Positions 17,831-25,820 of a stretch of DNA of 64,000 bases are shown here, piece by piece. Position 1 is the first letter of the stretch. Each line of letters begins with the position of its first letter. Under the pieces are notes generated by a model, which was not told the DNA's origin, did no database searches, and saw only the letters and a list, made by a program, of their open reading frames with translations. The position numbers and the translations under genes were made by a program. Source of the stretch: Zhaonella formicivorans (GTDB lineage: Bacteria; Bacillota; DUOV01; Zhaonellaceae); contig NZ_CP085524.1 in the NCBI RefSeq assembly GCF_004353525.1, positions 2,018,142 through 2,082,141 of the forward strand, given 5' to 3'.

Positions 17831-18379
17831 ATGCTTAAAAAGGCTCACGTTTTAACCCATTTAGCACTGCTGTTGGCAATTGCAGTGCTCCTCAGCATGC
17901 TGGGGGTTATGATTCCCATTGCAGGCATCAACGGCTTGAAGATTACGTTTGCCTATTTACCTATTATGCTTGCCGGTTTTGTATTTGGTCCGGCAGCAGG
18001 GGCAATCGTTGGGGCTTTGACAGATATCCTGGGCTATCTGGTAAAGTTTCACGCCTACGGCCCATGGTTTCCCGGCTTTACAGTGACTACCGCTTTAAGC
18101 GGCGCACTGCCTGTAATCATTTACCGGCTGTTTAAGGCAAATGAAAACCACAAAATCATTAAGCTCAGCATAGCAGTGGCTGTGACTTCGCTGTTAGTCA
18201 CGGTAATCAACACCTACTGGCTGCAAATTTTATACGGCAAAGCATTTTTAGTCATTTTGCCAATGCGCATTTTAAAAGAACTCATTCTCATCCCCATCCA
18301 AATTATTTCTTTGAACATCGTGATGGGCATCTACCGGGTGTTGATCAACCAGTTTTCTTCATACTCCATAAAGTTTTAA
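17831..18379 (+). CDS. folT: Folate ECF transporter substrate-binding (S) component FolT
   Basis: A 182-residue membrane protein with about six helices of the ECF S-component type (NGLKITFAYLPIMLAGFVFGPAAGAIVGALTDILGYL). Together with a shared ECF module (genes not in this window) it imports folate. The THF riboswitch upstream supports folate as the substrate. AAAGGAGA precedes the ATG. The terminator after the gene has been split by repeat element A. Confidence 0.9.
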   Translation: MLKKAHVLTHLALLLAIAVLLSMLGVMIPIAGINGLKITFAYLPIMLAGFVFGPAAGAIVGALTDILGYLVKFHAYGPWFPGFTVTTALSGALPVIIYRLFKANENHKIIKLSIAVAVTSLLVTVINTYWLQILYGKAFLVILPMRILKELILIPIQIISLNIVMGIYRVLINQFSSYSIKF

Positions 18380-18385
18380 CATCAA

Positions 18386-18627
18386 AGGCTTCCACCAGGA
18401 AGCCTCAGCTTGTAGACAAAGCCCACATGTATTATTTCGAGCAGCGGTCAGGGGACACACCTCTTATGCATGTTGTTCGCTTTAGCTGAGGGATGTCCCC
18501 AATTAATAAGCTCCTACGCGTTGACCTTTGGCAAAGCCGCCAGCCTAGAGGAAACCAGTCCCGCTCCATAATACATGCGGGCTGATAAGAGTTTGTCGAC
18601 GGTCTGAGGCTTACCACCAGGAAGCCT
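18386..18627 (+). repeat. Terminator-inserted structured repeat element, copy A
   Basis: The core 18406-18606 (201 bp) is flanked by two near-identical copies of the folT terminator hairpin (18386-18405 and 18607-18627, one-base difference); only the right copy has the T-tract. The core starts CAGCTTGTAGACAAAGCCC, ends GTTTGTCGACGGTCTG and contains the inverted pair GCCCACATGTATTAT / ATAATACATGCGGGC. The same core, same orientation relative to the host terminator, occurs at 24905-25046. A REP-like hairpin (18451-18500, GGGGACACACCTC / GAGGGATGTCCCC) is nested inside this copy only. Confidence 0.75.
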
Positions 18628-18665
18628 TTTCAGGTATCATCGGCGTATTTGGCCAGAGTTTGTTT

Positions 18666-20012
18666 TTACATCCTCCGGTCTCCTTCACCATCTTTTAGTT
18701 TTTGAGCGATAGACAGGAGCGCATCCCGCTCATTCAGCTGCGGCCTGTCCAGCACCATATCCAACAGTCGATTTAAAATCCGTCCTACTTCGGGGCCTGG
18801 ACCGATGCCCAGCGTTTTAATAATATCACTGCCTCTAATTTGCAGTTCCTGAACTGTAAGGGCATCCCCGCTCGCCATCACTTGCTCTACTCTTTTGACC
18901 AGCAGCTCCCAATCCTCTAATCCCCTGCCCCCTGCCGCAAGAAGCTTTGCCTTTTCCAACTCCAGGAGAGCGGAGATGTGCTCTTGGCCAACTTTCCTTA
19001 CCAACCTGCGCACCTCAGGCATACGAGCGGGGAAAGCGGACAGCTGATTGGCTATCAGATGGGTTACTGTGGCGATAGTATGATTCGAGTATTTCAGCCT
19101 GGCCAGAATGTCTCTAGCTAGTGCAGCGCTCTCCGCAGCACAGCATACCCCCTGGAAGTCGGATGTTGGCGAACACCGGAAATGAGCAGCCCTATGCAGC
19201 AGGGCGGCCAGTCGCAGTTCGAGCTTTGGGCTGGTATAACTCATTACGCTTAAACTGTAATTAAAAGCATCTTCCCCCAAGCCTTGCTGCCCAATGCCTC
19301 TGCTGTTATATAGTTCCGGTAAAATCTGCTGCAAAAGTCCGACTGTTGCCATCCGTTCCAAACATATATGAGGTATGGCAGAAGTAATAATTTTATTCAG
19401 TTCCATTTGAATTCTTTCGGCAGAAATCCTCCTGATGCTTTCTGCTTCCTGCCGAATGGCGCTTATAGTATCTTCGGCAATATCAATTTCTGCAACGTGA
19501 TAATGCAATTTGGCAAATAGGCTGAATGCCCTGAGGAGGCGCAAGGCATCATCCCGAAAAACCCGGTGAGGTTCACCCACGGTTTTAATTTTCACCCGTC
19601 CGTTGGCTAAATCCTCCATCCCGCGGAAAGGATCGACATATTGCCCGGTGACGGGATCGAAGGCAATAGCGTTGACAGTGAAATCCCGCCGGGAGAGATC
19701 TTCCAGCAGCGTCACCCCCAACCGGACCTCAGAGGGCTTTCGTCCGTCAAGATAGCGGCCTTCCCGGCGGAAAGCGGTCACTTCAATCGGCATCTCCGCT
19801 ATGACTGTGACAGTGCCAAACTTGAGGCCGGTGGGCACTGTTTTGGGAAAGAGGCGCATTACATCCTGAGGCAGGGCGGAAGTAGCCACATCCCAGTCCT
19901 GGGGGGTAAGCCCCAAGAGAACGTCCCGCACGGCCCCGCCCACGAGATATGCCTCGTAGCCCGCTTCCTGCAGTTTTTTAACTGTCTCAAATACCCCTTG
20001 TGGGATCTCCAT
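18666..20012 (-). CDS. cca: CCA-adding tRNA nucleotidyltransferase
   Basis: Class II tRNA nucleotidyltransferase of about 448 residues, which adds or repairs the CCA end of tRNAs. Family motifs are visible: LVGGAVRDVLLG, the catalytic DWDVATSA, RRDFTVNA and the EPHRVFRDDALRLLRAFSLFAKL block. The start at 20012 (MEIPQGVFE) has GAGGG eight bases upstream. The enzyme may be a full CCA-adding or only a CC- or A-adding type; the motifs alone do not decide. It is not linked to its neighbours. Confidence 0.93.
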   Translation of the reverse strand: MEIPQGVFETVKKLQEAGYEAYLVGGAVRDVLLGLTPQDWDVATSALPQDVMRLFPKTVPTGLKFGTVTVIAEMPIEVTAFRREGRYLDGRKPSEVRLGVTLLEDLSRRDFTVNAIAFDPVTGQYVDPFRGMEDLANGRVKIKTVGEPHRVFRDDALRLLRAFSLFAKLHYHVAEIDIAEDTISAIRQEAESIRRISAERIQMELNKIITSAIPHICLERMATVGLLQQILPELYNSRGIGQQGLGEDAFNYSLSVMSYTSPKLELRLAALLHRAAHFRCSPTSDFQGVCCAAESAALARDILARLKYSNHTIATVTHLIANQLSAFPARMPEVRRLVRKVGQEHISALLELEKAKLLAAGGRGLEDWELLVKRVEQVMASGDALTVQELQIRGSDIIKTLGIGPGPEVGRILNRLLDMVLDRPQLNERDALLSIAQKLKDGEGDRRM

Positions 20013-20144
20013 TGTCTTTTCCCTCATAATTTTATTTTTAAATACAATAAGTCCTGCTAACCATTAAGATTGCAGGACTGAACTTGAAAGGAACTATATT
20101 CATTGTAGCTCATAATAATGAGAAGAAGCAACTGGCAAATAACC

Positions 20145-20182
20145 CAAAACTGACTACTAACGACCATGGACTTAAGACTAAC
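20145..20182. repeat. Short 7-nt periodic array
   Basis: After the cca start region the sequence runs ACTGACT, ACTAACG, ACCATGG, ACTTAAG, ACTAACT with strict 7-base spacing. It ends at the sbcC stop. The same heptad type appears at 37780-38000 and 60089-60245. Confidence 0.5.
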
Positions 20183-20183
20183 T

Positions 20184-23100
20184 TCATGCCAGCTTAGTAC
20201 CTTCCCCCTGGTCCTTCTGCAGCTGGATGATGTTATCGGTCATTGCGTCAAAGGAATCATCGTGGCTGATGACGAACAGCTGATCAAAGTCACCGGTGAT
20301 CCGGGGAATGATTTGGGCCAGGTTGCCGCGGCGATCCACGTCCAAATTGGTGGTAGGCTCATCGAAGAAACCAAGTTTAACCCTTGCCAGCTGTCCCAAC
20401 AGGGCCAGGCGTACAGCCAAAGCGGCCGTCATCTGCTCCCCTCCGGAGAGCTGCCTGAAGCTTCGCTCCCGTTTCCGGCCCTGGTGACTGTCGGCTAATA
20501 CCAGTTCGTAATCTTCCCTCCATTCCAGGGTTACATTCTCTTTGGCAACTTCACGGTATAAGCGGTTGGCTTCGTGGGCCAGGTATTCCCGGTAAACGGC
20601 AGCCACCCGTTCCCCGGCACGGTTGAACACGCTGCGGATATATTCCAGCAGTTCTTTGACTGCCTGGTATTTTCCAATCCTGGCTGTAATTGCAGCCATT
20701 TCTTCTTTCGCCATTTCCATGGCCAGAAGCTTTTGCTGCAGCTCTTGCAGCGCTTTTCCTCTTTCCAGTAAAAGCTGTTCGGCTTTAGCCAGCTCGATTT
20801 GCAGCTCTTCTAACGTCTTTTCCAGTTCAACCAGCGTCTCTTCCCTAAAATTAGCGGAGAGCACCTGGATTTTAGAATTCAAACCCTCATATAACTCCTG
20901 CTTTTCCTGTAACAGCCGACTTTCCGCCTCCAGCTGGGCCTTTATACCAGCCACTCTTTCGGCTTCTTCCCGGTGCTGCATATAGGTTTCATAAGCCGCC
21001 TGGTTAGAGGCAAGTACAGCTTGTCTGGCTTTAATCTCGGCGTCAACTTCCTGGTAATTTAAAAGCACCTGCTCAGTGGTATGCTGTTCCAGTTTTAGTT
21101 TTTCGATTCCCCGCGCTGCTTCCTGTAAAATTTGGCGCTGCTTTTCCAACTCCGCCAATTTATTGTCTAAATCAGCCAGCTGTTTTTGCAGTGCCTGCTG
21201 TTCCCCTAACAGTTGCCCTAAAGCTGCTGAACGCACCTTACCTTCCTCAACTGTTGCCCCGTTTATTTCCTGGTAAAAACTTACAACTGTCTGGTAAAAC
21301 ATTTCAGTTTTTTCCAGAACCAGGTCAAGTAGTTGCACCAGCCTGTTGAGGCTGTCCTCTTCGACTTGGCCTAATGAGCTGACAGAGCTGACATAATCTG
21401 CCCAGGCCCTTTCCACTTCCCCCTCTGCTCCATCTAACCTTGCTTCCGGCAAAGGAGAAATATCTTTGCTAACCTTAGCCGCAACTTTTTCCAGCACGAT
21501 CCGGCTCTGCTCCAGCAGGTGTCTGGAAGTTTCCGCCAAGTCTTCTTTAATTGACCTCTGAAAATAAATGCGAAAAGCCTCCAGGTATTTTACCTGCTCA
21601 TCCTTCAGGTGCTGCAAAGCGGCTTGCTCTTTTTGCAGGTTCTCCAGCGCCTGGATTATGTACTGTCCCCTGGCAATAGCATCCGCCAGCTCGCCCGCCT
21701 GCCTGTTTTCTGCCTCTATTTGCCGCTTTACGTCCTTGATTTGCTCCGCAAAATATTTGCTTAAATCGCCGCCTACGTTCTGGCAGGGTGAATGCAAAAA
21801 TGGGCACTGACCGCCAGCCGTATTCCTCTGGTTTTCCTCCAGAGTATGCAGCTTTTGCTCCAGCGAAGCCAATGCAATGCGCCTGGCCTCCAGTTCTTTT
21901 TCCAGAACTTTAATGCCCTCGGCTTCTTTTCGGACCTCTGCTTCATGGGCTAATTTCTGCAAAGTTTCAGCGATCCTGGCTTTAAGCTCAGTCCATTTTG
22001 CCAGGCCATCATTGATTCTGCGCCTGGTCTCGGCAAGCTCAGCTGATTTCTTGTCTCCTGACTTGAGCTGCTGCTGGAAACTTTCCAGGCAAGAGCTGAG
22101 CGCAATAAGTTCCTCGTTTTTAGCCCGGGCCTCCTCTACCTGGGCTTCCTTTTCCTGCAGCTGTTTTAATTTATCCGCTGCAGCTTTAGCAGTCTCCTGC
22201 AACTGCCCTTGCAATGCTTTTTCCTCTGCTTCCAGGGCAGCTTCTCTGGCTTTAAGTTCGGCAGTCAGATCGGCCAGTCTTTTGGTCAACTGGTCCCTTG
22301 CCTCCCGTTTTTGCTCCAGCTCTGCCAGTTCCTTTTGCGCAACCAAATATGCCCGGTAGCCGGCTTGCGCCGCAGCTGTTTTTTGGGCTGCTTCCATCGC
22401 TTTTACCAAATTCCCCTGCAACTCACCAAGCCTTTTCTCTATGTTTTCCAGTTCAATTTTGGTAATGTCGGCCTTTTTTAAAATATGCTCCAGTTCAATT
22501 TTAGTTTTTCGCAGGGCATCCCTTTCCTTTATTTTCACCGCCAGGTTGTCCTTTTTCACCTTTACCTGCTGCTGCAATTCCTCAATCAAAGGAGTGAGTA
22601 CCTCCGCTTCCGCTTTGACTCGCTCATAATCCGCCACCCGTTCTTCCAACCGCACCTTGATCTTTTCCTGTTCCCCAATCATACGGTTAATGGCAGCCAC
22701 CACTTCCCTGGTTTTGCTATAGGCTTCATTGAAGGCTTCCACTTTGAGCATTTTATTGAATTTCTGCTTGCGGTTGGCCGGCGTTTCCAGGAAAGGTGCA
22801 GTGAAGGTCCCCTGGCTTACGCCTACTACATCATTGAAAAGCTGGGCCAAGTCCTGCTCCTGCTCGATACCAAGGGAGTCTTTCAGCCAGGGTTTAATGT
22901 CCGAGGCACCATGTAAATCGATCTCCGCCCCTGATTCCCCGTCGTACACTATCCAGGATGAAACGCTGCCCAGCTTCCGCACCACTTTGTACAGACAGCC
23001 ATCGCCGGCTTCAAACTCCACGGTTATAATCCCTGTTTTGGCGCCATAACGGACAAATTCAGCCAGCGTGCCCGGCTTACAGTCAAAAAGGGCATATCCA

Positions 23101-23228
23101 ATGCTCTCGATAATGGTTGATTTGCCGGCCCCGTTAACCCCGGAAATGAAGTTCACGCCGTCGTAAAAAGTGATGGTCTGGTCCTGATAGCTCTTGATAT
23201 TCTGTAAGCGCAGCCGTTTAATCTTCAT
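20184..23228 (-). CDS. sbcC: SbcC-type exonuclease ATPase subunit
   Basis: A 1014-residue Rad50/SbcC ATPase. The N-terminal Walker A is GVNGAGKST (about 29-37); two long coiled-coil arms (about 170-460 and 510-850) flank the hook; the C-terminal lobe has the signature QLSGGEQMTAALAVRLALL and Walker B GFFDEPTTNLDVD. At the apex it has CPFLHSPC (about 476-483) rather than the CxxC zinc hook. With SbcD it cleaves DNA hairpins and processed ends. Its start overlaps sbcD by 11 bp. Confidence 0.93.
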   Translation of the reverse strand: MKIKRLRLQNIKSYQDQTITFYDGVNFISGVNGAGKSTIIESIGYALFDCKPGTLAEFVRYGAKTGIITVEFEAGDGCLYKVVRKLGSVSSWIVYDGESGAEIDLHGASDIKPWLKDSLGIEQEQDLAQLFNDVVGVSQGTFTAPFLETPANRKQKFNKMLKVEAFNEAYSKTREVVAAINRMIGEQEKIKVRLEERVADYERVKAEAEVLTPLIEELQQQVKVKKDNLAVKIKERDALRKTKIELEHILKKADITKIELENIEKRLGELQGNLVKAMEAAQKTAAAQAGYRAYLVAQKELAELEQKREARDQLTKRLADLTAELKAREAALEAEEKALQGQLQETAKAAADKLKQLQEKEAQVEEARAKNEELIALSSCLESFQQQLKSGDKKSAELAETRRRINDGLAKWTELKARIAETLQKLAHEAEVRKEAEGIKVLEKELEARRIALASLEQKLHTLEENQRNTAGGQCPFLHSPCQNVGGDLSKYFAEQIKDVKRQIEAENRQAGELADAIARGQYIIQALENLQKEQAALQHLKDEQVKYLEAFRIYFQRSIKEDLAETSRHLLEQSRIVLEKVAAKVSKDISPLPEARLDGAEGEVERAWADYVSSVSSLGQVEEDSLNRLVQLLDLVLEKTEMFYQTVVSFYQEINGATVEEGKVRSAALGQLLGEQQALQKQLADLDNKLAELEKQRQILQEAARGIEKLKLEQHTTEQVLLNYQEVDAEIKARQAVLASNQAAYETYMQHREEAERVAGIKAQLEAESRLLQEKQELYEGLNSKIQVLSANFREETLVELEKTLEELQIELAKAEQLLLERGKALQELQQKLLAMEMAKEEMAAITARIGKYQAVKELLEYIRSVFNRAGERVAAVYREYLAHEANRLYREVAKENVTLEWREDYELVLADSHQGRKRERSFRQLSGGEQMTAALAVRLALLGQLARVKLGFFDEPTTNLDVDRRGNLAQIIPRITGDFDQLFVISHDDSFDAMTDNIIQLQKDQGEGTKLA

Positions 23229-24504
23229 GGCCTTTACTCCTGTCTTTCCCTGCTGCCGCCTCAGGAAGAGGCAGCTTCTCCAGCAGCTTTTCTACGGCGG
23301 AAATAATTTCTGTTTCATCCACCCCTGCCAGGGCATCGTTTTTCACCCGCAGCATGAGCTCAACCACCTGATCAGCCACTTCTTTCAGTTCCGGCTTGTC
23401 TTCCGCCAGCATTGCGGTGAGCACATGCCGCTCAATCAAGTTCCGGTCAAAACCGGTGAATTCCGCCCCCGTATCCAATTGGGGCAGATTGGCATTGTTC
23501 AGCACTTCCACCAGGAGGCAACCAAACCGTTCTTTTACTTTTTCCGCCAGGTCATTAGTATCAATGGCAAAGGAATTAAAAGCTATAGCGCCGTAGAGGT
23601 TAATCTGGGCAATAGGTCTGTCCAAATCCCGCAGGTCTGAATCCTCTAACAGCTGCAATACTTTAGCAGTAACCTGTCCCGGTTCAGTCAGACCGGTCAA
23701 ATCCAACGGGTAGCGGCGCACATCGCGGCGTTTGCTGGGTATAAAGTTAACCCTTTTTTCCTTTCCGACCACAGTAACATGATAAAAGCCTTTTTCATTG
23801 CCCTCTTTTGCTTCATCCAGGTGCACGCATTCCGGTGCGCCGGGGTTAAACACCAATTCCCCCAGTTCCTGGCGGCTGTGAATATGACCCAGGGCAAAGT
23901 AGTCCACTTTTCCCCGGAATTTTTCAAAGACTTCCCCCTTAACTCCGGCTAAATCCTGCCCCAGGAGCTTATCCACCGCCGCATGGAGCATAACTATTGT
24001 AAAATTTTCCGAGGCTTTAATTTTTTCCGCAATTTCCTCCAGCCGCTGCCGGGTAGTGGCTCCCAGGTAGCCAAGCCCGATAATCCGCAGGCCTTTTTCC
24101 TCCAGCACAGAGCCAATTCCACCGTCATAAGGGGCCAGCTCCAGCCCGCTTTCCCGGAAAACCGGCCTGAGCAGGCGGAGATACCCCTGGTTGTTAAGAA
24201 AACTCATCCAGGAATCTCTTTCAAGGTAAAATGCTTTATCGTGGTTTCCTTCAATAGCGATAGCCTCAATTCCGGCTGACTTCAGACGTGCTAAGCCCGA
24301 GATGGCCTGGGCCAGGGTAGGGGCATTCACGCTGCGGTGGTGAAACAAGTCGCCACCAATGAGCATAAAATCAACTTTGGCCGCGACGGCATAATCTATC
24401 ACCTGGGCAAAGGCAGCGCCAAAATCGTGCCAACGCTGGATTTCATTAAACTGCTGGCAACCCAGGTGCAGGTCGCTGCAGTGCACAAAACTTACCTGTT
24501 TCAT
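23218..24504 (-). CDS. sbcD: SbcD/Mre11-type nuclease subunit
   Basis: A 428-residue metallophosphoesterase. The five phosphoesterase motifs are present: CSDLHLG, GGDLFHH, GNHDK, the AAVD region and ALGHIHS. It provides the nuclease active site (two metals) of the SbcCD complex, which opens hairpins in long palindromes; this is notable in a genome region rich in palindromic repeats. First gene of a two-gene operon with sbcC. Confidence 0.93.
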   Translation of the reverse strand: MKQVSFVHCSDLHLGCQQFNEIQRWHDFGAAFAQVIDYAVAAKVDFMLIGGDLFHHRSVNAPTLAQAISGLARLKSAGIEAIAIEGNHDKAFYLERDSWMSFLNNQGYLRLLRPVFRESGLELAPYDGGIGSVLEEKGLRIIGLGYLGATTRQRLEEIAEKIKASENFTIVMLHAAVDKLLGQDLAGVKGEVFEKFRGKVDYFALGHIHSRQELGELVFNPGAPECVHLDEAKEGNEKGFYHVTVVGKEKRVNFIPSKRRDVRRYPLDLTGLTEPGQVTAKVLQLLEDSDLRDLDRPIAQINLYGAIAFNSFAIDTNDLAEKVKERFGCLLVEVLNNANLPQLDTGAEFTGFDRNLIERHVLTAMLAEDKPELKEVADQVVELMLRVKNDALAGVDETEIISAVEKLLEKLPLPEAAAGKDRSKGHED

Positions 24505-24638
24505 GCTTGATTACACCCACTTCTGGATATTTATTGCATTTAACTGTTTGTACAATTTTTCCATCAAGGTATACCGCACTTTTAGCGTGCATATGAGTAA
24601 GTTATAGTTATATTAATAACCAATAGAGGGGTCTCTTT

Positions 24639-24791
24639 ATGGGCATTATTTATCTGCTCGCCGGCGTAGTTTTTATATTCTGTGCCATCCAAAGTATAAT
24701 CTTCAAGGTTACAGGCGCAGCCATTTTCTTTGCTTTTTTAACTGTGCTAACTTTCGTTTCCTATAAAGGGGTCCGGTCACAGGACCCATAA
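24639..24791 (+). CDS. Small hydrophobic membrane protein, 50 residues
   Basis: Short frame starting MGIIYLLAGVVFIFCAIQSI and ending GVRSQDP. It has two hydrophobic stretches of about 15-18 residues. GAGGGG lies eight bases upstream of the ATG, and a hairpin GGGTCC/GGACCC (24769-24787) followed by ATAATTTTT overlaps the stop codon as a terminator. The gene layout is convincing; the function is unknown. Confidence 0.55.
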   Translation: MGIIYLLAGVVFIFCAIQSIIFKVTGAAIFFAFLTVLTFVSYKGVRSQDP

Positions 24792-24796
24792 TTTTT
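24769..24796 (+). terminator. Hairpin terminator of small membrane protein gene
   Basis: Stem GGGTCC/GGACCC with loop GGTCACA, followed by ATAATTTTT. It overlaps the last codons. Confidence 0.55.
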
Positions 24797-24886
24797 CCGG
24801 GTCGCCATACGCGTCTTTACATTTTCGCGAACATACGTTGCATATCCTGCTTTGGCAAAAAGAAATAAGTAAGTTAATAAAAAAAC

Positions 24887-25064
24887 TCCCGCCAGGCGGC
24901 GGGACAGACCGTCGACAAACTATTATCAGCCCGCATGTATTATGGAGCGGGACTGGTTTCCCCAGCCGTCGGCAGCTATGCTGCCGGTAACGGCGTAGGA
25001 GCTTGTCCAGAGCGAAATAATACATGCGGGCTTTGTTTACAAGCTGTCCCGCCAGGCGGCGGGA
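24887..25064 (-). repeat. Terminator-inserted structured repeat element, copy B
   Basis: The core 24905-25046 (142 bp) is flanked by two identical 18-bp hairpins (TCCCGCCGCCTGGCGGGA in minus-strand sense, 25064-25047 and 24904-24887). Only the downstream copy is followed by a T-tract (GTTTTTTT), and it is the expected terminator of the livHMGF operon. The core has the same ends as copy A (CAGCTTGTAAACAAAG and GTCGACGGTCTG) and a perfect 15-bp inverted pair GCCCGCATGTATTAT / ATAATACATGCGGGC enclosing an inner hairpin (CGGCAGC/GCTGCCG). Confidence 0.78.
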
Positions 25065-25109
25065 TGTTGTATATTGGTATGTCACTAACTGAGGACTGGT
25101 GGCTGCACA

Positions 25110-25820
25110 CTAGTCCACCATCCCCAGGTAAACTTGCTGGATCAGGTCATTTTTCATCAGCTCATCCGAGCTTCCCTCCAAAACGATATTGCCGGTCTCC
25201 AGCACATAGGCCCGGTCAGCCACCGACAGCGACAAGGGGACATTTTGCTCCACCATCAGGATCGAAATGCCTTGCCGGTTGATTTGCTTGATAATTTTAA
25301 AAATATTCTCCACGATCACCGGAGCCAGCCCCAAAGAAGGCTCATCCAAAAAGAGCAGCCGGGGATTTGACATCAGTCCCCTGCCAATGGCCAACATCTG
25401 CTGTTCGCCGCCCGATAAAGTCCCCGCCTGCTGGCGGCGGCGCTCCTTCAGAATGGGAAACATCTCAAAGACCATTTCCAGATCTCTTTTGATCCCATCC
25501 TTGTCCCGCCGCATAAAAGCTCCCATGTCCAGGTTTTCCTGTACGCTCATCCCGGCGAACACCCTTCTGCCCTCCGGCACCATGGCTATGCCTTTGGATG
25601 CTATCTTATCCGAAGAGAGCCCGGAAATAGTTTCTCCCTCGAAAACAATAGTCCCCTCTCGGGGCCGTACCACCCCGCAAATTGCATTCAAGGTAGTGGT
25701 CTTGCCGGCGCCGTTGTTGCCGACGAGAGCCACAAATTCCCCTTTGCTTACCTGCAGTGAAATCCCGTGCAGCGCTTTTACGCCACCGTAGGACACTTTC
25801 AGTTTTTGCACATCTAGCAT
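25110..25820 (-). CDS. livF: Branched-chain amino acid ABC transporter ATP-binding protein LivF
   Basis: A 236-residue ABC ATPase: Walker A GNNGAGKTT, signature LSGGEQQMLAIGRGLM, Walker B LLFLDEPSLGLAP. The SLGLAPVIVENIF sequence after Walker B is typical of LivF. Last gene of the five-gene liv operon, 12 bp after livG. Its terminator is interrupted by repeat element B. Confidence 0.93.
   Translation of the reverse strand: MLDVQKLKVSYGGVKALHGISLQVSKGEFVALVGNNGAGKTTTLNAICGVVRPREGTIVFEGETISGLSSDKIASKGIAMVPEGRRVFAGMSVQENLDMGAFMRRDKDGIKRDLEMVFEMFPILKERRRQQAGTLSGGEQQMLAIGRGLMSNPRLLFLDEPSLGLAPVIVENIFKIIKQINRQGISILMVEQNVPLSLSVADRAYVLETGNIVLEGSSDELMKNDLIQQVYLGMVD

Follow-up and report, generated by a model that had tools for sequence, protein, structure and literature searches.

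The 64,000-nucleotide stretch of the Zhaonella formicivorans genome analyzed here (contig NZ_CP085524.1, positions 2,018,142 to 2,082,141; hereafter the window) contains two related short repeats, copies A and B, at a folT-side and a liv-operon transcription terminator, respectively. We conclude that both are very probably miniature inverted-repeat transposable elements (MITEs) of an insertion sequence (IS) of the IS1182 family, inserted at stem-loops by a transposase acting in trans, with duplication of the hairpin. The family is dispersed to more than 50 loci, has hairpin-sized duplications at its flanks, and has its tips in common with an IS that encodes an IS1182-type transposase and whose empty sites hold a single hairpin. 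An initial annotation of the sequence had proposed insertion at terminator stem-loops with a duplication the size of the hairpin. Support for this proposal comes from 40 of 52 copies in the host genome, from exact duplications around the full-length IS, and from empty sites of that IS that hold one hairpin. The annotation had also placed the two copies and described a hairpin on both sides of each, different at the two loci (20/21 bp at folT and an identical 18 bp at liv), and both descriptions are confirmed (Table 1).

Searches of the host genome with copies A and B returned at least 61 and at least 46 matching pieces, respectively. We retrieved 73 stretches around similarity and tip-pattern matches, and an end-pair scan of these together with the window gave 53 rows. 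One spurious overlapping row (L035 minus) was discarded, leaving 52 end-paired copies of 139–408 bp that, as expected of MITEs, are short, multicopy, and free of a transposase gene. Their tips of about 15 bp read CAGCTTGTARACAAA ... TTTGTCGACGGTCTG. For each element we aligned the 40 bases on the left with the 40 bases on the right, using all 2652 mismatched pairings as the control. The 99% point of the control (10) was exceeded by 40 of the 52 copies and its maximum (12) by 38, and in the copies exceeding the control the matching segment lay at the junction or a few bases from it. Among the 40, the duplicated segments are 16–31 bp long (median 22), differ in hairpin sequence from locus to locus, and have a mean palindromicity of 0.64, compared with 0.35 for shuffles. 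Full duplications are found, for example, at L068 (31/31 bp), L046 (22/22), and the second copy of L048 (23/23). Because the duplication length varies with the hairpin, the structure of the target appears to set the stagger, which argues for structure recognition. The orientation of transcription, in which the initial annotation had placed the element, is not a general rule: a T-rich tract lies to the right in 24 of the 40 copies, an A-rich tract to the left in 19, and both in 8, which suggests that family elements insert in either orientation.

We then scanned 398 genomes of the phylum for the tip CAGNTTGTAGACAAA, with the reversed pattern as control. The tip matched in 36 genomes, among them that of the host and G002, and was numerous in G038, G249, G257, and G233. 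The reversed pattern matched in 12 genomes and never more than twice in any of them, so a share of the single tip matches is due to chance. Among 79 tips from tip-bearing genomes (a set that excludes 11 superseded loci and one locus of the host and includes some chance matches), 54 had a hairpin directly to the left, and at 38 the hairpin was duplicated. Two genomes, G038 and G340, yielded full-length relatives with an enzyme of their own. These IS copies of 1,594–1,612 bp have the left tip of the family and the right tip TTTGTCGACAGTCTG; their terminal inverted repeats, CAG..GACAAA and TTTGTC..CTG, enclose a single frame of 491 or 492 aa, as in the IS1182 family, and the encoded protein is an IS1182-type DDE transposase (NF033551, above cut-off; E 3e-139 for L408 of G038 and E 1e-139 for L422 of G340). 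The tips of copy A agree with those of the G038 IS at 15/15 and 14/15 positions, and those of copy B at 14/15 and 14/15. Like some IS1182 members, the IS copies in G038 and G340 sit at palindromes or stem-loops, and the hairpin, different from copy to copy, is exactly duplicated at 8 of the 10 G038 tips retrieved (34 were found) and at 7 of 8 in G340. In G380, which belongs to the genus of G340, there are MITEs whose start resembles that of the window elements (CAGCTTGTAGACAAAGCCCGCATG), with a scored hairpin duplication at one of the four tips retrieved. A search by sequence for a solved structure among relatives of the transposase found none (three matches, E 0.49–0.65).

Two other members of this transposase family leave a different footprint. 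IS1272 and TnSha1 of staphylococci target stem-loops, several of them transcription terminators, with no sequence consensus, and the stem-loop is deleted or replaced without duplication (PMC4923244 and PMC5678879). The window family has the transposase family and the stem-loop targeting in common with them, but its elements in the window lack a transposase gene and the whole stem-loop is duplicated, both in those 40 host copies and in the IS copies. A stem-loop replacement of the IS1272 kind, followed by gain of the second hairpin through gene conversion or recombination, would agree with the one-sided hairpin of some host copies. Yet G038 and G340 have IS copies that are very much alike and nevertheless flanked by exact duplications of differing hairpins, and with exact duplications at so many loci later repair is hardly their source; we give this sequence of events very little credence.

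Empty sites were predicted by joining the flanks of eight G038 copies and were searched for in five genomes of the family of G038. In the congener G249, three of the eight sites (L408, L409, and L410) hold a single hairpin, aligned base by base across the junction. Genomes from further genera of the family likewise show a single hairpin at L408 and L410, with lower identity. These sites bear on the possibility that the twin hairpins predate the element, either as tandem terminators or as an RNA element (riboswitch-like or an attenuator) with functional paired hairpins. In some pairs, such as that of L042, the differences preserve base pairing in either stem, and selection may therefore still act on both hairpins. 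However, the hairpin is specific to its locus yet common to both sides, insertion apparently took place in both orientations, and the IS copies show the same duplication pattern; for the IS, the single hairpin in the G249 sites that were checked contradicts an older pair. In addition, comparison of 18300–25200 with Rfam gave no match at gathering score (for a group IIC intron, this concerns the RNA domains; reverse transcriptase genes were not searched for). We consider older twin hairpins highly improbable.

The family combines common tips with two unlike interiors. Type 1 measures about 142 bp, with a further form of about 201 bp that contains a nested GGGGACA..TGTCCCC repeat, and type 3 measures 264–408 bp. 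Copy A (CAGCTTGTAGACAAA / TTTGTCGACGGTCTG) includes the nested repeat, and copy B (CAGCTTGTAAACAAA / TTTGTCGACGGTCTG), whose left tip is one base off that of copy A, lies at a distance of 0.007 from the consensus of 33 short copies. In G001, where the tip pattern had no match in the 398-genome scan, we found 35 core matches (40 candidates scored; e.g., L084, L087, and L093) that lack the CAG..CTG tips and have ends like GGGCGAATG..CATTCGCCC. The core thus looks like an independent repeat resembling repetitive extragenic palindromes (REPs). Given the unlike interiors within common tips and the tipless core in G001, we infer that mobility resides in the tips, with the interior as cargo. The core of three host copies (L040, L046, and L059) is flipped with respect to the tips; recombination between the inner inverted repeats, or insertion of the core as a unit of its own, may account for this. 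The GGGGACA..TGTCCCC palindromic repeat (18451–18500 of the window, within copy A) stands alone at L107 of the relative G002 and has a REP-type resemblance.

The palindromic cores, found without family tips in G001, could point to another enzyme as the mover: a reverse transcriptase like that of group IIC introns, a RAYT/Y1 transposase that acts on the REP-like cores, or an integrase of the Cas1 kind that duplicates palindromic repeats. Group IIC introns choose terminator hairpins, as the window family does, and Cas1-type integration duplicates a repeat. The introns, however, depend on a ribozyme and a reverse transcriptase and are not known to duplicate the hairpin. Moreover, the full-length elements with these tips and this duplication encode an IS1182 transposase (genes for the rival enzymes were not searched for in the host genome), and interiors that differ (type 1 with or without the nested repeat, and type 3) while only the tips are held in common are what would be expected of ends recognized by a transposase. 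Movement by one of these other enzymes is therefore very unlikely. The EFAR repeats of Enterococcus faecalis, reportedly small palindromic elements aimed at stem-loops, resemble the window family in their targets and are said to differ in that insertion deletes most of the stem-loop.

Taken as IS1182-derived MITEs, copies A and B suggest the following mechanism. Gene-less derivatives of an IS1182 element would keep the tips of about 15 bp around an unrelated interior, and the transposase would have been supplied in trans by a full-length IS that is now not found in the host genome. The enzyme would pick inverted repeats, of which many are rho-independent terminators, would probably recognize them once extruded as a cruciform or hairpin, and would attack at the 5′ feet of the stem-loop; gap filling would then copy the whole stem-loop to both sides. 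The data fit pathway b of the IS1272 cruciform model, in which the whole stem-loop may be duplicated if joining takes place at the 5′ feet (drawn in PMC5678879).

Several observations weigh against this interpretation. Copies without hairpin duplication, which the initial annotation had named as counterevidence, do exist beside the 40 with it: 12 of the 52 host copies have no scored duplication (L014, L021, L025, L031, L035, L037, L055, L057, L059, L062, L067, and L078). Among these, a strong hairpin is confined to the right side in L055, L057, L059, and L062; L025, L031, and L035 have one common right flank, which continues into a type-3 repeat; and L078 retains half of the hairpin on the left. 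The 12 copies reflect in part decay or rearrangement and in part a one-sided hairpin. At L054, the duplication takes in just the central 19 bp of a palindrome that extends further, so cutting is not always at the base of the stem. The divergence of paired hairpins shows no significant correlation with the divergence of the elements (rho 0.25, p 0.20, n=27). Two IS copies, L421 and L425, have unlike hairpins on their two sides, which recombination between copies, if it occurred, would explain. As for the empty sites, the base-by-base check is limited to three of the eight G038 sites in G249; matches for L405 and L426 cross the junction and were left uninspected, those for L407 and L427 in G249 are split at the junction, and the predicted site of L406 had no match in G249. 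The empty-site evidence that the initial annotation looked to is thus in hand for the IS, and none was obtained for a window copy itself. Finally, the matching full-length IS sits in other families of the phylum, so mobilization of the window MITEs in trans rests on the tips.

The IS1182 protein of G340 had no match in the genome of the window (G000) or in the two members of its family (0/3), and it matched 10 of 12 tip-bearing genomes, some weakly. With tips present and no IS1182 transposase found in the host genome, the window elements look like orphaned MITEs. Four DUF772 places in the host genome (L368–L371) belong to other IS. Three of them (L368, L369, and L370) are near-identical IS copies with IS1182 as best family, under its cut-off. 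We rejected the DUF772 IS as the driver: in the three copies whose ends could be set, these read GAGCTAATTGCG..AAAAAGCTC and differ from the tips of the window family, and inspection by eye shows no duplicated hairpin.

Outside the host genome, searches with the window elements gave few leads. The MITE had no match in phages and plasmids, the two-end pattern found no stretches in a genome-contig collection (from which the host genome is possibly absent), and the window tips matched 76 and 47 stretches of viral contigs, none with a partner tip or a repeated hairpin. In G233 we observed composite elements of about 1.93 kb (L437, L439, L442, and L443), in which a transposase-like frame of about 500 aa lies within a 273-bp MITE; at L442, the inserted frame has the ends CAGACTGTGTG../..CACACAGTCTG and a seeming ACGT duplication. 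The duplicated hairpin is a different one at each of the four loci, which suggests that the composite has moved as one. Also in G233, a 2,157-bp tip-bearing element (L420) has these MITE ends around a gene for another IS1182-family transposase (NF033551 E 8e-95, above cut-off).

The comparison extends to the YPAL or RU-2 repeats of Yersinia, gene-less repeats of about 168 bp (PMC2229807, PMC2759123) that have duplications of variable length, 3–26 bp, at targets that span or adjoin dyads (PMC2229807). Their tips, CAGACTGCTGACAAA / TTTGTCAATAACCTC in the RU-2 sequence of PMC2759123, agree with those of the window family at 11/15 and 9/15 bases, with equal spacing to the junction. None of 200,000 shuffles reached 20/30, a test that is lenient because the tips are mutually inverted repeats. 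By eye, the RU-2 interior is unlike those of the window elements, whereas the tips correspond. Scanning genome contigs for the YPAL core pattern gave 79 loci (Yersinia and Pectobacterium), 78 of them readable, of which 55 were kept on the basis of tip quality and length. An adjacent duplication above control, 15–30 bp long, was present in 26 of the 55, and 20 of these 26 (20/55) were palindromic; YPAL, unlike the window family, includes a number of short duplications that do not form hairpins. The YPAL tip also matched 19 stretches in viral contigs, leading to L366, a 1,576-bp element with a duplicated hairpin and an IS1182-family transposase in two pieces (frame broken). This evidence indicates that the YPAL repeats belong with IS1182. 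L367, at first sight autonomous, proved to be a YPAL element that harbors an IS110-type gene, and we rejected it. On a K. pneumoniae plasmid (NZ_CP055058.1), a YPAL-like element (L143) has the hairpin CAGGGGC..GCCCCTG on both sides, with differing loops, and no empty site was discernible for this copy among matches swamped by ISKpn26.

We lean, with some reservation, toward a distinct DDE transposition mode, common in bacteria, behind these cases. IS1182-group transposases would attack both 5′ feet of an extruded terminator stem-loop, so that the whole hairpin would be duplicated, with the duplication length set by the target rather than the enzyme; IS1272 deletion and hairpin duplication would be two outcomes of one structure-guided reaction, and YPAL would fall in the same superfamily.

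The initial annotation knew of no described element with such behavior, a statement that has to be narrowed. Besides IS1272 and TnSha1, the IS1182-family elements ISCbo5 and ISBma2 target terminator hairpins: with one exception, their insertion sites are gene-end hairpins, described as likely transcription stop signals (PMC3098183). The excerpt of that paper does not mention hairpin duplication. Terminator targeting by IS1182 members and YPAL duplications at dyads are therefore already in print. As far as our searches went, the window repeat family, the duplication of the whole hairpin that usually accompanies it, and the link between YPAL and IS1182 are new. In the literature searched, whole-hairpin duplication by an IS1182 element figures solely as a drawn possibility (excerpt of PMC5678879), and we do not claim its absence from print at large.

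Table 1. Copies A and B, their flanking hairpins, and the adjacent genes (window coordinates)
Feature	Coordinates	Strand	Basis
Upstream folT-side terminator hairpin, probable left target duplication of copy A	18386..18405	+	AGGCTTCCACCAGGAAGCCT, aligns with 18607-18627
Copy A, 201-bp probable non-autonomous IS1182-type element (MITE), long type	18406..18606	+	End pair, 0+0 mismatches
Downstream folT-side hairpin copy, probable right target duplication of copy A, then TTT	18607..18627	+	AGGCTTACCACCAGGAAGCCT
Downstream liv-operon terminator hairpin, probable right target duplication of copy B, then T tract (minus strand)	24887..24904	-	TCCCGCCGCCTGGCGGGA (minus-strand reading)
Copy B, 142-bp probable MITE, short type	24905..25046	-	End pair, 0+0 mismatches, R at variable base
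Upstream liv terminator hairpin, probable left target duplication of copy B	25047..25064	-	Same 18-mer as 24887-24904 (TCCCGCCGCCTGGCGGGA)
Gene upstream of copy A, encoding a folT-type ECF transporter S component	17831..18379	+	TIGR04518 E 8e-36, above cut-off
Gene next to copy B	25110..25820	-	Best family NF008626 LivF E 1.5e-84, under that family's cut-off

The repeats provide a natural data set, with dozens of loci in several bacterial families, for the pathway-b mode of IS1272, in which the duplication is set by a DNA hairpin, and they indicate a candidate transposase family for the YPAL repeats. The duplicated hairpins also suggest that a functional terminator persists at each site after insertion; this may be why the genome tolerates more than 50 gene-adjacent insertions.

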